From: Oceanibaculum indicum P24
GTDB taxonomy: Bacteria > Pseudomonadota > Alphaproteobacteria > Oceanibaculales > Oceanibaculaceae
NCBI RefSeq assembly: GCF_000299935.1
Contig: NZ_AMRL01000003.1
Coordinates: forward strand, 62,001-126,000
Reading direction: 5' to 3'
DNA length: 64,000 nt
This document shows positions 12,144-17,339 of the stretch, piece after piece; positions within the stretch are counted from its first letter, which is position 1, and every line of letters begins with the position of its first letter. Made by a program: the position numbers and the translations under genes. Under the pieces are notes generated by a model that was not told where the DNA came from, did no database searches, and saw only the letters and a list, made by a program, of their open reading frames with translations.

Positions 12144-12194
12144 TGTTGATATCAACAGTTAGGTGTTGACCTAAGTTTATTCCCGGTCTATGAC
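12144..12194 (+). promoter_or_regulatory. ArsR operator and promoter of the arsR-SRPBCC pair
   Basis: TTGACC (12166-12171) and TATGAC (12189-12194) are spaced by 17 bp and point at the ArsR gene. The -35 box is overlapped by a perfect inverted repeat TTAGGT-GTTG-ACCTAA (12159-12174). A second perfect palindrome, TGTTGATATCAACA (12144-12157), lies just upstream. The layout suggests ArsR autorepression. Confidence 0.6.
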
Positions 12195-12221
12195 GACTGC
12201 ACCGACAAAAGCGGAGGCTGC

Positions 12222-12602
12222 ATGGCGACACCCGGAGCCGGCACAGGGAGCACCGGCGGAAAGATGGCGGAGGCGGCCATCGTAGATGGCATCTTCCGTG
12301 CCCTGTCCGACCCGACACGCCGGCATGTGCTGGAACGGCTGAGTGCCCGACCGGCCTCCGTCAGTGAGCTGGCTGCCCCCTATGACATGGCCCTGCCTTC
12401 CTTCCTGCAGCACATGAAGGTGCTGGAGAAGAGCGGACTGGTGCGCTCGCGGAAGGCCGGACGGGTGCGGACCTACAGCATTGAGCCGGAACGGCTGAAG
12501 CTGGCGGAGGACTGGCTGGAACGGCAACGCAGCATGTGGGAACGCAGGCTCGACCGGCTGGGTAGTTACCTAATGAAAATGAAGGAGGAGAATTCCGAAT
12601 GA
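12222..12602 (+). CDS. ArsR/SmtB-family transcriptional repressor
   Basis: The 126-residue protein has a winged-helix domain starting at [17 protein letters not shown], with the recognition helix around [18 protein letters not shown] and the wing [13 protein letters not shown]. No metal-binding cysteine motif (such as CVC) is present, so it is not a typical metal sensor. A GGAGG Shine-Dalgarno lies five bases before the ATG. Its stop overlaps the SRPBCC start in an ATGA junction. ArsR genes coupled to SRPBCC proteins are common; the partner is often thought to bind a hydrophobic ligand. The upstream TTAGGT dyad is the probable operator. Confidence 0.88.
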
Positions 12603-13087
12603 CATCGCCCATCTTGAAGATCGACCCGAAGCTGGACCTGGTGCTGGAACGCGAGATCGACGTGCCGGTGGAACTCGTCTGGAAAGCCTGGACGATGCCG
12701 GAGCATCTGAAGGAATGGTTCGTGCCGAAGCCCTGGAGCATCGTCGCCTGCGAGATTGACCTCCGCCCCGGTGGAACCTTCAGCACGACCATGCGCTCGC
12801 CCGAGGGCGAGGAATTCCCCAATGCCGGTTGTTTCCTGGAGGTGACGCCGCTGGAACGGCTGATCTTCACCGATACGCTGCTGCCCGGCTACCGCCCCGC
12901 ACCGAAGCCCTTCTTCACTGGCGCCCTGGAACTGTCGCGCATCGGCAGCGGCACGCGCTACAAGGCCATCGCCATCCATGGCGACGAGGAAACCCGCAAG
13001 AACCACGAGGAGATGGGGTTCCACGATGGCTGGGGCACCGTGGCCACCCAGATGGTGGAGTATATCAAGGCTGGCCGCGTCGGCTGA
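12599..13087 (+). CDS. SRPBCC (Aha1/START-like) domain protein
   Basis: The 162-residue cytoplasmic protein has the AHSA1-type SRPBCC fold: an initial strand ([19 protein letters not shown]), the [13 protein letters not shown] helix, the [20 protein letters not shown] hairpin and the long C-terminal helix ending MVEYIKAGR. Such proteins enclose a ligand cavity, but the ligand is unknown. Start and stop codons overlap the preceding ArsR gene (ATGA), so the two products are made together. A palindromic half-repeat that could terminate transcription begins 15 bp after its stop. Confidence 0.88.
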
Positions 13088-13102
13088 GATGCCCGCCTTC
13101 CC

Positions 13103-13129
13103 TCACCCCCGCACTTGGTGCGGGGGTGA
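13103..13129. repeat. Palindromic half-repeat overlapping the isochorismatase stop
   Basis: TCACCCCCGCAC (13103-13114), TTG, and GTGCGGGGGTGA (13118-13129) form a perfect 12-bp stem. It matches one hairpin of the larger repeats. It lies between convergent genes, and its left edge is the stop codon of the isochorismatase gene. Confidence 0.75.
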
Positions 13130-13666
13130 CGCCTCCGCCAGCAATTCGTTGGTAGGCAGCACGCGCACCGGCGGATCGGCGATCAGTTCGCTCCACAGCC
13201 AGTTATGATGGCGGATGACCGCAGGGGCGGGCAGATGCGGCCGGTCGCTGAGCGTATGGGCGTCCGAGGGCACGACAGCCGCAAATCCGTGCGAGACGGT
13301 GGAGCGCACCGTCGAATCGACGCAGAAATCGGTGGCCCAGCCGCAGACCAGTACGCGCGACGGGGTCAGCTCCCGCAGCAGCGCCGCAAGGCCGGTGCCG
13401 GCATAGGCGTCATTCAGGGTCTTGCCGATTTCGGCATCCTCCGGCGCGCGCAGCAGTTCCGGCAGGAATTCCCAGCCCGGCGAACCCGGCTCGAACCCGT
13501 CGCCCGGCTGGCCGCAATGGCGTATCCACACCGCCCGGCCGCCGCTGCCGCGCACCATCGCCGTCAGCGCATTGATGCGCGCCACCACGCCGGCCAGATC
13601 GTGCTTCGGTGCGCCCGCCAGCATCCCGGCCTGCATATCGACAATGAGGATGGCGTAAACTAGCAT
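13103..13666 (-). CDS. Isochorismatase-like cysteine hydrolase
   Basis: The 187-residue protein belongs to the isochorismatase/nicotinamidase superfamily. The catalytic triad is visible: Asp10 in ILIVDMQ, Lys82 in EIGKTLNDAY and Cys115 in GWATDFCVDST, with the preceding residues giving the usual cis-peptide site. Substrate class (amide, nicotinamide or carbamoyl compound) is not decidable. Its last nine codons are supplied by a palindromic repeat, so the C-terminus SPPHQVRG is probably not functional. The ATG follows the stop of the AT-rich HEPN gene by six bases and has no clear Shine-Dalgarno, which suggests translation coupled to that gene. Confidence 0.85.
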   Translation of the reverse strand: MLVYAILIVDMQAGMLAGAPKHDLAGVVARINALTAMVRGSGGRAVWIRHCGQPGDGFEPGSPGWEFLPELLRAPEDAEIGKTLNDAYAGTGLAALLRELTPSRVLVCGWATDFCVDSTVRSTVSHGFAAVVPSDAHTLSDRPHLPAPAVIRHHNWLWSELIADPPVRVLPTNELLAEASPPHQVRG

Positions 13667-13672
13667 TGGTCG

Positions 13673-14626
13673 TTAGGTATTAGAGTTAAAAACCTTCTTT
13701 TGAGCAGCAATATACACATCACAACCGACATCTCTTAAGAGAGCCATACAGTCTTGTACGTAAGTAGCCTCAAAGGAGATTTTTTCACCAACCACAAACT
13801 CGTCATCTATACGATTTTTATACTTAAAATCTACCAAACCCCTTCTGTGAACAATTAAATTTCTTTGCTGAAAAATACGCCTCAACCTAACATCATTTAT
13901 TTTCTTAGTTAAAGCTTTATCTTCAAAAACAGAATGAATCGCAGATTGCATTTTTTCAATACTATCCAAAGAAACTATACTAGACAAAAAATTACCCATT
14001 GATTTTGATAAATCAAAAGAATAATCTCTTAGTCCTTCTAATAAATTTCTTGAGCTTATTATCTCTTTATAAGGTTTTATATTCGATATATTATTTAATA
14101 AACTAGGGTCTCTATTTAAAGACTCCCTCAACACATCATTTATGAATATTTCAAAAGACCCCCAAGACATTACCAAAACCTGCCTTAATAATTCGTCAAA
14201 TGTAATGTCTATTTCATCTGAGTTATTATAATTGTGGAGTCTATATATTATATTTCTTTTATGATTTACCAAAACATCATGATCTCTCAACTCTTCTTTC
14301 ATTGAATTATTTGCATTCTCTAGCGCTATTTCTTCTGAATTCTCATCCTGAACAATTTTTCTCCCCTCCGGCCTTAAAGTCCGTATCCTCTCAGCAGAGA
14401 GAATTTGGCTAAATCTAATATCTAAAACAGCTTTCGTTGCCAGTTGATATGGAATAGTTCCCACCATAAATGCAGAAAAAAGGTTTTGCCGAAAAGAGCT
14501 TAAAATAAATGTTATATCTGACTCTTCACTTAGAGAAGCGTCTATTTTATCAAAAAATGAATCCACTCCATCTAGAATGAATTTCCTTTTTACGTCCAAA
14601 TATACGCTTTCAAATTCAACACTCAT
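13673..14626 (-). CDS. Probable HEPN-domain ribonuclease, AT-rich orphan gene
   Basis: The 317-residue product is not a known housekeeping protein. Near its C-terminus lies RRIFQQRNLIVHRRG, giving R255-x4-H260, the RX4-6H signature of HEPN ribonucleases. The preceding long helices (for example LLRQVLVMSWGSFEIFINDVL, residues 147-167) resemble MAE_28990/RiboL-PSP-type HEPN proteins. The gene is strikingly AT-rich, with codons such as AAA, ATA and TTA, unlike every neighbour, so it was probably acquired laterally. No antitoxin such as an MNT nucleotidyltransferase is adjacent. HEPN proteins of this type often act in phage defence or toxin systems; that role is inferred. Confidence 0.7.
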   Translation of the reverse strand: MSVEFESVYLDVKRKFILDGVDSFFDKIDASLSEESDITFILSSFRQNLFSAFMVGTIPYQLATKAVLDIRFSQILSAERIRTLRPEGRKIVQDENSEEIALENANNSMKEELRDHDVLVNHKRNIIYRLHNYNNSDEIDITFDELLRQVLVMSWGSFEIFINDVLRESLNRDPSLLNNISNIKPYKEIISSRNLLEGLRDYSFDLSKSMGNFLSSIVSLDSIEKMQSAIHSVFEDKALTKKINDVRLRRIFQQRNLIVHRRGLVDFKYKNRIDDEFVVGEKISFEATYVQDCMALLRDVGCDVYIAAQKKVFNSNT

Positions 14627-14684
14627 AATCTCTCACATATTTCTTAGATTACACCTTCGACGTTTCCTAACACCTACTTAACTC

Positions 14685-14690
14685 ATTATA
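14685..14690 (-). promoter_or_regulatory. -10 box of the HEPN gene
   Basis: On the minus strand the AT-rich leader contains a consensus TATAAT, 58 bp before the HEPN start codon. No good -35 box is visible at 16-18 bp. The gene appears to carry its own promoter, which may also drive the downstream isochorismatase gene. Confidence 0.45.
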
Positions 14691-14731
14691 TAAGGTAAAC
14701 TTGTTATAGAAATTAAAAAAGCTTATAGATA

Positions 14732-14751
14732 AAGGGGGCTTTCGCCCCCTT
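14732..14751 (-). terminator. Intrinsic terminator of the GST gene
   Basis: On the minus strand AAGGGGGC-GAAA-GCCCCCTT forms a perfect 8-bp stem with a GNRA loop, followed by TAT. It begins 3 bp after the GST stop codon and marks the edge of the AT-rich insert. Confidence 0.7.
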
Positions 14752-14754
14752 CCC

Positions 14755-15447
14755 TCACCTTTTCTCGTACTGCTTCTTGCCGAACATGTTCTCGCGCTGC
14801 TCGTCGGTGATCGGGCCGGTGCGGCGGTGTTCCGCCAGCACGGCGAGGCCCTTCTGTACCGCCGGGCGGGTTTCCAGGCTCTCGCGCCAGCGCTTCACCT
14901 CCGGATACTGCTCGATATCCACGCCCTGCCGGTCGGGATAGCGCAGCCAGGGCATGATCGCCATGTCAGCGATGGAATAGTCGCCGGCGACATAGTCGCG
15001 GCCCTGAAGGCGCTTGTTCAGCACGCCGTAGAGCCGGTTCGCCTCATTGGCGTAGCGGTTCATGGCGTATTCGATCTTCTCCGGCGCGTATTGCAGGAAA
15101 TGGTGCGCCTGGCCCAGCATCGGCCCGATGCCGCCCATCTGCCACATCAGCCATTGCAGCACGTCATAGCGCGCCTCCCCGCCCTTGGGCAGGAACTTGC
15201 CGTGCTTGTCGGCGAGGTAGATCAGGATGGCGCCGCTCTCCATCACCGTGTAGGGCTTGCCGTCCGGCCCCTCGGAATCGACGATGGTCGGCATCTTGTT
15301 GTTCGGGTTCAGCTTGAGATATTCCGGGTCGAACTGCGCGCCCTTGCCGATATCGACCGGAATGACGTTATAGGGCAGGCCCAGTTCCTCCAGCAGGATG
15401 GAAACCTTGAAGCCGTTCGGCGTGGGCCAGGTATAGAGATCGATCAT
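14755..15447 (-). CDS. Glutathione S-transferase, YfcG/YghU-like
   Basis: The 230-residue cytoplasmic protein has an N-terminal thioredoxin-fold glutathione-binding domain (IDLYTWPTPNGFKVSILLEELG; NKMPTIVD with the cis-proline; ESGAILIYLAD) and a C-terminal helical domain (YSIADMAIMPWLRY). The TPNG motif and the helical pattern are those of the Nu-class disulfide-bond oxidoreductases YfcG and YghU. ATG 15447 was chosen because the fold begins there and an AAGGAAAGGA ribosome site lies just upstream; the longer frame adds 24 unstructured residues. It is followed by its own terminator. Confidence 0.9.
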   Translation of the reverse strand: MIDLYTWPTPNGFKVSILLEELGLPYNVIPVDIGKGAQFDPEYLKLNPNNKMPTIVDSEGPDGKPYTVMESGAILIYLADKHGKFLPKGGEARYDVLQWLMWQMGGIGPMLGQAHHFLQYAPEKIEYAMNRYANEANRLYGVLNKRLQGRDYVAGDYSIADMAIMPWLRYPDRQGVDIEQYPEVKRWRESLETRPAVQKGLAVLAEHRRTGPITDEQRENMFGKKQYEKR

Positions 15448-15570
15448 GTCGCGGTCCTTTCCTTGGACGGGCGTATTGCTATTCTCCGACAAGGTAGAGG
15501 CAGCGGGCGTCGGCTCCAAGAGGCCATCCCGTCACCTGTGCCATGAATGACAGGAAAGAATGACAGCGCC

Positions 15571-15981
15571 ATGACCGACTTTGCCCTGCACCCGCAGCTC
15601 GCCGCCGACACGCTGGAGGTCGGGCGCTATCCGCTCTGCCGGGTGCTGCTGATGATGGATGCGACATATCCCTGGCTGGTGCTGGTGCCGCAGCGCCGGG
15701 ATATCCGCGAAATCCATGAGCTGCCGCCGGAGGACCGGGCGGTGCTGATGGAGGAGATCGTGCGCACCACGCAAGGGCTGCAGGCGCGCTACAACCCGAC
15801 CAAGCTGAATGTCGCGGCGCTGGGCAACATGGTGCCGCAGCTGCATGTGCATGTGATTGCCCGCTTCGCCACCGACCCGGCCTGGCCGGGGCCGGTCTGG
15901 GGCAAGGTGCCGCCCCGCCCCTACGCCGCCGGCGAGGCGGAAAAGCTGATCGTCAGCCTGCGGCCCTTGCTGGGGCTTTAG
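15571..15981 (+). CDS. HIT-family nucleotide-binding protein
   Basis: The 136-residue protein is a histidine-triad relative (nucleoside phosphoramidase or diadenosine hydrolase type). The motif reads QLHVHVIAR, so the first histidine of HxHxH is glutamine, while the catalytic second histidine and the third are kept. The NVAALGNMVPQLH context supports a HIT fold. This short HIT subgroup with a PGPVWG tail is common in proteobacteria; its substrate is unknown. An ATG at 15547 would add eight residues and is possible. It is divergent from the GST gene. Confidence 0.82.
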   Translation: MTDFALHPQLAADTLEVGRYPLCRVLLMMDATYPWLVLVPQRRDIREIHELPPEDRAVLMEEIVRTTQGLQARYNPTKLNVAALGNMVPQLHVHVIARFATDPAWPGPVWGKVPPRPYAAGEAEKLIVSLRPLLGL

Positions 15982-16016
15982 GAAGCTGTAGGCCACTGGT
16001 GTTGTGGGATTCTGTT

Positions 16017-16118
16017 TTGTCATTGCCGGGCTTGACCCGGCAATCCAGGGGCCACGTTCTGTTTCGCTACAGGCAAGGCACCGCCCCTGGATGCCCGGAT
16101 CAAGTCCGGGCATGACAA
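16017..16118. repeat. Double-hairpin intergenic palindromic repeat, copy 2
   Basis: The element starts TTGTCA and ends TGACAA. The left hairpin is TTGCCGGG-CTTGA-CCCGGCAA and the right one is ATGCCCGGA-TCAAG-TCCGGGCAT. CCAGGGGC and GCCCCTGG pair between them. The right half is nearly identical to the copy at 54.6 kb, which lies in the opposite orientation. Confidence 0.8.
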
Positions 16119-16147
16119 GTTACTTTGATGGTCATCCCATACTCCAT

Positions 16148-16263
16148 CCGTCACCCCCGCACTTGTTGCCCAAGGGCGCTTAGGGGGTCCAGGGTTCAGC
16201 CTACTGGATCATTGCCGGAGCGAGCCGATCCCTGGATTCCCGGCACAAGGCCGGGAATGACGG
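16148..16263. repeat. Double-hairpin palindromic repeat, copy 3, with a disrupted arm
   Basis: The ends are CCGTCA and TGACGG, as in the copy at 10.6 kb. The right hairpin TTCCCGGC-ACAAG-GCCGGGAA is intact. The left hairpin is broken by about 13 extra bases (near 16169-16181) between CACTTGTTGC and GGGGGTCC. Together with copy 2 it fills most of the 589-bp stretch between the HIT gene and the hydroxyproline genes that lacks a coding region up to 16337. Confidence 0.75.
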
Positions 16264-16337
16264 TCATTGATAGTTCGACTTCCAGAATCAACCCCAGCAC
16301 CCCATAGGGTTTTTTGCGGGCATGACGCTCGAGAGAC

Positions 16338-17339
16338 CTACACCACCTGGAAGCCGTGGGCGTAGGGGTCACGGTCATCCACGAAGATGGTGTTGATGCC
16401 GGTGATGCGCGCCCAGCCGGCAACCGAGGGCAGGATGGCGTCGCGGCCGGCAAGGCTCGTCGCGGATTCGACGCGCCCCTCGAACAGGCTGCCGATGATG
16501 CTCTCATGCACGAAATCGTCACCAGGGCGCAGCTTCCCCTTCGCCGCCAGATGCGCCATGCGGGCCGAGGTGCCGGTACCGCAGGGCGACCTGTCGATCG
16601 CCTTGTCGCCATAGAACACGGCGTTGCGGCCATGCGCCTTGGGATCGCGCGGCGCGCCGGTCCACATGACATGGGACACGCCATTGATGGTCGGGTTCTC
16701 CGGATGCACGGGCTGCAGCTTTTCCTGCATCAGCCGGCGCACGATGGGCGAGTAGTGCAGGATCTCCCCCGCCGACAGGCTCTCCAGCCCGGCATAGTTC
16801 TTCTGTGGCTCGACAATAGCGTAGTAATTGCCGCCATAGGACACATCGACCGTCAGCTCGCCCAGACCCGGCACATCAATGACGATATCCGTCGCCTCCA
16901 GGAAGGAGGCCACGTTGAACAGCCGCACCTTGTCCACGAAGCGGCCATCCATCTCATACTCGACATCGACCTTGCCGGCCGGCACGTCCAGCGACAGCTT
17001 GCCCTCGACGCGCGGCGTCACCAGCCCCTGCTCCAGCGCCACCGTCACCGTGCCGATGGTGCCGTGCCCGCACATCGGCAGGCAGCCGGAGGTCTCGATG
17101 AACAGCCAGCCAATATCGCAATCCTCGCGCAGCGGCTTGTAGAGGATGGAACCCGACATCATGTCGTGGCCGCGCGGCTCGAACATCAGGGCGTGGCGCA
17201 CCCAGTCATACCGCGTCAGGAAATCCTGGCGGTAGTCGCTCATCGACGCGCCCTTGAGGGTCGGCCCGCCGCCCACGACAACCCGGACCGGGTTGCCGCA
17301 GGTATGGGCATCGACGCAGAAGAAGCTGTGGCTGGCCAT
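16338..17339 (-). CDS. 4-hydroxyproline 2-epimerase (proline racemase family)
   Basis: The 333-residue enzyme interconverts trans-4-hydroxy-L-proline and cis-4-hydroxy-D-proline without a cofactor. Both catalytic cysteines of a racemase are present: Cys90 in PMCGHGTIG and Cys253 in DRSPCGTGTSA. The C/C pair separates it from the dehydratase encoded two genes upstream. It is the last gene of a three-gene minus-strand group with a DapA-like lyase (13 bp upstream) and a trans-3-hydroxyproline dehydratase. Proline racemase would share these motifs, but the neighbours favour hydroxyproline. Confidence 0.88.
   Translation of the reverse strand: MASHSFFCVDAHTCGNPVRVVVGGGPTLKGASMSDYRQDFLTRYDWVRHALMFEPRGHDMMSGSILYKPLREDCDIGWLFIETSGCLPMCGHGTIGTVTVALEQGLVTPRVEGKLSLDVPAGKVDVEYEMDGRFVDKVRLFNVASFLEATDIVIDVPGLGELTVDVSYGGNYYAIVEPQKNYAGLESLSAGEILHYSPIVRRLMQEKLQPVHPENPTINGVSHVMWTGAPRDPKAHGRNAVFYGDKAIDRSPCGTGTSARMAHLAAKGKLRPGDDFVHESIIGSLFEGRVESATSLAGRDAILPSVAGWARITGINTIFVDDRDPYAHGFQVV

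Follow-up and report, generated by a model that had tools for sequence, protein, structure and literature searches.

The window, that is, the whole 64-kb stretch of DNA that was analysed, has a GC content of 64.5% (mean over 1-kb windows, SD 4.2 points), and its sole run of 1-kb windows with less than 55% GC corresponds to an inserted segment at positions 13652-14726. Both this segment and the gene that it carries have a GC content of 31.6% (26% at the third codon positions of the gene). The gene, recognised as an ORF and through its homologues, occupies positions 13673-14626 on the minus strand, begins with ATG, is intact and encodes a 317-aa HEPN-like protein that is present in a single copy in its own genome. 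The insert contains nothing beyond this gene and the ~100 bp of DNA upstream of it, in agreement with the original prediction, made from the sequence alone, of an AT-rich segment bearing one gene. A distance of 6 bp separates the stop codon from the start codon of an isochorismatase gene (13103-13666, same strand). As judged from their translations, the neighbouring genes have housekeeping or metabolic roles, encoding LepA, a permease, a regulator, an isochorismatase-like hydrolase and a glutathione S-transferase-like protein, together with a HIT-like protein, proline-racemase-like proteins and a DapA-like protein. The window copy is surrounded by these housekeeping genes, and there is no defence island there.

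The insert is bordered on one side by the start codon of the isochorismatase gene and on the other by a terminator-like hairpin belonging to the upstream gene. This GC hairpin (14733-14750, minus strand), located after the glutathione S-transferase-like gene, persists at the right-hand boundary, with its T-run altered relative to the sister species. At the other edge (13652-13672 and 13664-13666), the insert has taken the place of the region preceding the isochorismatase gene and of the initial residues that this gene encodes, the protein beginning with MLVYAILIVDM in the window and with MDVILIVDM in the sister species (G001); owing to this replacement, the isochorismatase gene may be read through from the promoter of the HEPN-like gene. 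The latter had been credited with a TATAAT box of its own. A TATAAT-like -10 hexamer does exist upstream of the gene (14684-14691, minus strand), but a promoter scan did not detect, at about 14685, any promoter-like site accompanied by a -35 element, and roughly 0.2 hexamers of this type are expected, by our estimate, in ~100 bp of such composition; the hexamer is thus not unusual and constitutes weak evidence for a promoter. Nearby, the 3' end of the isochorismatase gene carries a GC-rich palindromic segment (13090-13140, CCCTCACCCCCGCACTTGGTGCGGGGGTGACG) with many 85-96% matches in all three congeneric genomes; it represents a REP-like repeat of the dispersed type. On both strands of 15990-16310, ORF translations such as PGLDPGIQ...WIAGSSPAMT and WIPGTRPGMT suggest a second family of dispersed intergenic palindromic repeats.

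Comparison of the locus in close relatives, which the original prediction had called for, revealed an empty site. When both flanks were searched with blastn, positions 12156-13651 and 14727-15982 of the window matched a single contig (C4) of the sister species with 89% and 93% identity, and the flanks are separated by 13 bp there versus 1,075 bp in the window; the boundaries of the insert were taken from this comparison and are accurate to within a few bases. Additionally, the gene is absent from all three congeneric species searched. Since the same genes flank the site in the sister species and only 13 bp separate them there, the difference represents the clean gain of one gene (or its loss in the relative), and the evidence supports the segment being a horizontally acquired single gene within a clean insert of ~1.07 kb. 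Neither terminal inverted repeats nor an att-like repeat were found at the ends of the insert, nor was there a target duplication that convinced, and no insertion mechanism is therefore proposed. In another congener (G002; L014, contig C18), the isochorismatase gene is joined directly to a proline-racemase-like gene, corresponding to the region of position 16339 of the window, and the glutathione S-transferase-like gene is found on another contig, an arrangement that marks the interval 13652-16339 as a variable spot within the genus.

Genome searches identified six full-length relatives of the protein, with 25-29% identity, in other species (G015, G331, G757, Seohaeicola saemankumensis, a Roseicyclus species and Humitalea rosea), at least three of which are Alphaproteobacteria. 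The family is rare: a class-level search of 385 genomes found it in the genome of the window and in two others (a fourth match, sharing only the RX4H segment, was left out of the count), and it occurs in 2 of 298 genomes in one family and in 1 of 301 in one order. Distant proteins that have only the RX4H segment in common (L004, L024, L030-L032, L051-L054) were likewise not counted as family members. Queries consisting of the protein, three of its relatives and the family alignments retrieved no copy among 50,697 phage records (INPHARED), 72,556 plasmid records (PLSDB) or the IMG/VR viral contigs. In the alignment of the seven sequences, 29 of 317 positions are invariant, including W155, E159, D205, L206, S209, M210, G211, R255, H260, R262 and D266. 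That an intact ORF retains every family-invariant residue at such low identity argues for past selection on the protein. The N-terminal 120 residues (14269-14626, minus strand), predicted to form a helical domain, are conserved within the family (19-47% pairwise identity, mean 30%) and have no Pfam match, indicating that its members have in common an N-terminal domain of their own kind; a sensory or regulatory role is proposed for this part.

The seven family genes reside in differing neighbourhoods. Five of the six relatives are AT-richer than their flanks, by 9-27 points (gene versus flank GC of 0.498 vs 0.59, 0.472 vs 0.55-0.58, 0.388 vs 0.54-0.57, 0.446 vs 0.68-0.69 and 0.421 vs 0.69), the remaining one, in G757, having a GC content of 0.482 with flanks of 0.43-0.53. 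An all-against-all comparison of the ORFs within 8 kb at the seven loci detected no common neighbour adjoining the gene; the few matches corresponded to RTX-type repeats and, in two loci, to TRAP-transporter genes at a distance of kilobases (together with an antisense ORF). Thus, the earlier description of a lone gene without a partner holds for this locus and extends to every homologue. Two relatives lie in islands bearing integrases or recombinases: the G015 copy is close to a P4-type integrase and an AAA_25 helicase, and the G757 copy belongs to an ~8.6-kb element (L057, 1926-10576) by which a gene of the comM/yifB type is split. Apart from the HEPN gene, this element encodes two recombinases, a large serine and a tyrosine one, and has a weak match to Rep (ORF2/G2P); it has the appearance of an undescribed mobile element, and its site belongs to a known class of insertion hotspots. 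Additionally, the G331 copy adjoins an ORF that, by inspection, reads like an IS21-type transposase, and a resolvase is found near the Seohaeicola copy. These differing contexts suggest that the gene moves in different vehicles and persists on its own.

The C-terminal part of the protein (residues ~121-317; 13676-14268, minus strand) resembles HEPN domains. The only Pfam family matched by the protein and by the family consensus is HEPN_RiboL-PSP (PF18735), with E=1.3e-4 (22.3 bits) for the protein, E=6.5e-5 (23.4 bits) for the C-terminal domain and E=3.4e-5 (24.3 bits; positions 13-188 of 191) for the consensus, none of which reaches the curated cut-off of 28.4 bits; when searched singly, the six relatives do not match this family. 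Alignment of the family with members of PF18735 by hhalign, using a comparison alignment of 6 members with 15-27% identity, pairs E159 and the R/H residues, with a probability of 1.4% and an E-value of 0.038. The MAE_28990 HEPN profile of Pfam gave no match at E up to 1. Hence, of the proposed likeness to RiboL-PSP and MAE_28990 HEPN proteins, the former survives as the nearest, subthreshold relationship and the latter finds no counterpart. No match was obtained in NCBIfam or, at E up to 1, among the defence families of PADLOC (2023), PDB sequence searches returned no meaningful match, and the only PHROGs match, weak and unnamed (E 0.03), was that of one relative, the window protein having none. 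The AlphaFold models are all-helical with a HEPN-like layout (pLDDT 76 for the full protein and 80 for the domain). In the structural check suggested in the original prediction, Foldseek searches of the PDB with the two models, built from shallow alignments of 3 and 7 rows, retrieved no HEPN structure (best E 0.12 and 1.0), and membership of the fold therefore rests on sequence. The top Foldseek matches of both models were generic helical proteins and were not counted as evidence.

Further indications come from the published description of HEPN domains, used here as a yardstick (PMC3710099). The RX4H motif announced at residues 255-260 is indeed present there as R-N-L-I-V-H (13847-13864, minus strand) and represents the predicted RNase active site. 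Such a motif arises in 31% of shuffles of the window protein and is, by itself, weak evidence; the invariance of R255 and H260 in seven homologues at 25-29% identity makes it more than a chance occurrence, and the other R..H pair of the protein (R124) is not conserved. As in described Rx4-6H motifs, the arginine is followed by a polar residue (asparagine in the window protein, histidine in the remaining six members), and in both models the motif is located at the end of helix-3, before the loop to helix-4: in the full model, a predicted helix at 246-262 is followed by a loop and a long helix at 287-313, the domain model being alike and both having moderate confidence near the motif. The invariant E159 (14150-14152, minus strand), within the long helix 137-172 that precedes the insert between helices 2 and 3, may correspond to the acidic residue that is conserved in helix-2 of HEPN domains; the Ex3[KR] signature occurs in four of the seven members (L003, L025, L026, L029), the window protein having EIFIN. 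The insert between helices 2 and 3, also part of the published description, is present and carries the FDLSKSMG motif.

Judging from these sequence features, the window protein is very likely a HEPN RNase, and by analogy with known one-protein systems its function is probably, if by no means certainly, phage defence. As the best overall explanation, we favour, with some reserve, the view that the gene was acquired horizontally, is self-contained and encodes a latent HEPN ribonuclease, which probably acts as an abortive-infection effector. By extension from known HEPN proteins, the C-terminal domain would dimerise and cut RNA through Arg255 and His260. Less certainly, the N-terminal domain and/or the FDLSKSMG insert may hold the protein inactive until a signal derived from the phage is received, in a manner comparable to Tha, after which RNA cleavage would stop host and phage together, as shown for Tha (PMC11087260).

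It is also conceivable, although unlikely, that the protein is an active HEPN RNase with a role other than phage defence, i.e., a stress- or growth-regulating RNase or an addiction or stability gene of mobile elements, whose antitoxin would be encoded elsewhere or consist of RNA. HEPN toxins do occur in toxin-antitoxin pairs (PMC4621449, PMC3710099), and some relatives reside in mobile elements. However, no conserved small gene adjoins any of the seven copies, and the window copy, with its own ~100 bp of upstream DNA and 6 bp downstream, survives on its own without an antitoxin. No antitoxin gene of the kind that accompanies HEPN toxins (MNT and others) is adjacent, the insert having no room for one and the seven loci no conserved neighbour. 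A toxin-antitoxin pair with the downstream isochorismatase gene was considered and rejected, since the isochorismatase gene is a native part of the locus, as seen in the sister species, and adjoins no homologue. Two further readings each appear improbable. In one, the protein adopts the HEPN fold and serves in RNA binding or regulation without being a nuclease; some HEPN domains are in fact non-catalytic (PMC3710099), but these usually lose the Rx4-6H motif, which is invariant here in all seven divergent members. In the other, an all-helical protein unrelated to HEPN uses the R..H pair for something else, as could be argued from the frequency of RX4H in shuffles, the Foldseek results and the subthreshold Pfam score; against this, the consensus matches a HEPN family alone and over the full domain, and three further features fit HEPN, namely the placement of the motif where a helix ends, the glutamate upstream of it and invariance. 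Finally, that an ancestral AT-rich gene was lost from the relatives instead of being gained here is very improbable, for even if the comparison covers one genome per species, the gene lies 33 points below its host in GC content, three congeners lack it, and its homologues are rare, scattered over distant families and flanked by unrelated neighbours.

A bolder proposal can be tentatively made, namely that the family provides an undescribed form of mobile one-gene immunity, based on a HEPN RNase, in which the N-terminal domain and the FDLSKSMG insert sense a phage component directly, and which spreads as a solitary AT-rich gene among distantly related bacteria. In the window, such immunity would be present without a mobility gene of its own and outside defence islands, and a solitary gene in such a position would escape island-based searches. 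Being located outside defence islands and without a partner, the gene is a candidate of the type overlooked by island-based surveys. Additionally, the empty site in the sister species provides a clean before-and-after pair for the gain of a single gene.

Among known systems, HEPN_RiboL-PSP ('Ribo L-PSP-HEPN'; Anantharaman et al. 2013, PMC3710099) shares with the window protein an RX4H motif of the active type and a match over most of the domain. This family is found fused to endoRNase L-PSP or in a ParB operon, whereas the window gene has neither context and its product differs by its own N-terminal domain and the FDLSKSMG insert; a search of the available literature by that name found no paper on RiboL-PSP HEPN. 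A partial likeness links the protein to a zinc-ribbon RX4H family (L024, L030, L031, L004) of ~330-340 aa proteins, 45-57% identical, that end in QQRHLLAHxQGIVD and have no Pfam family. Over the last ~62 residues, around R-H-L-L-x-H and the GxVDxxYxxxxGDxxxxGxRL segment that follows, the window family and this family align with an hhalign probability of 96%, and a search of the window's genome with their profile returned the HEPN-like gene as the only match, whereas the remaining protein is unrelated and the zinc-ribbon cysteines are absent from the window protein. Longer cousins of this family, with a winged tail, were also observed (L032, L053, L054).

The closest likeness in architecture is to Tha, a tail-activated HEPN anti-phage protein of S. 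aureus prophages (PMC11087260). Both are single proteins of ~300 aa with an uncharacterised N-terminal part and a C-terminal HEPN domain bearing R-N-x3-H (residues 265-270 in Tha, 255-260 here), a likeness of architecture only, as Tha-1 and the window protein have no alignable sequence similarity (best BLASTP E 0.31, at non-equivalent positions). Tha is prophage-encoded and has an overlapping inhibitor, formerly annotated as xis, neither of which is seen at the window gene. Another example is DS-11, a one-protein CBS-HEPN defence system from DefensePredictor that requires its HEPN catalytic residues (PMC13092281) and whose regulatory part is a CBS domain, a domain that Pfam does not detect in the window protein. 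The suggestion that the module is not yet described therefore applies to the family, within the libraries used, and not to its kind, of which Tha (PMC11087260) and DS-11 (PMC13092281) have been published. In its proposed mode of action, the window protein resembles both of these. Given these known one-gene HEPN defences, the window gene represents a new, unnamed HEPN family of a familiar type; rather than opening a new kind of system, it adds a small and rare family to the one-gene HEPN effectors.
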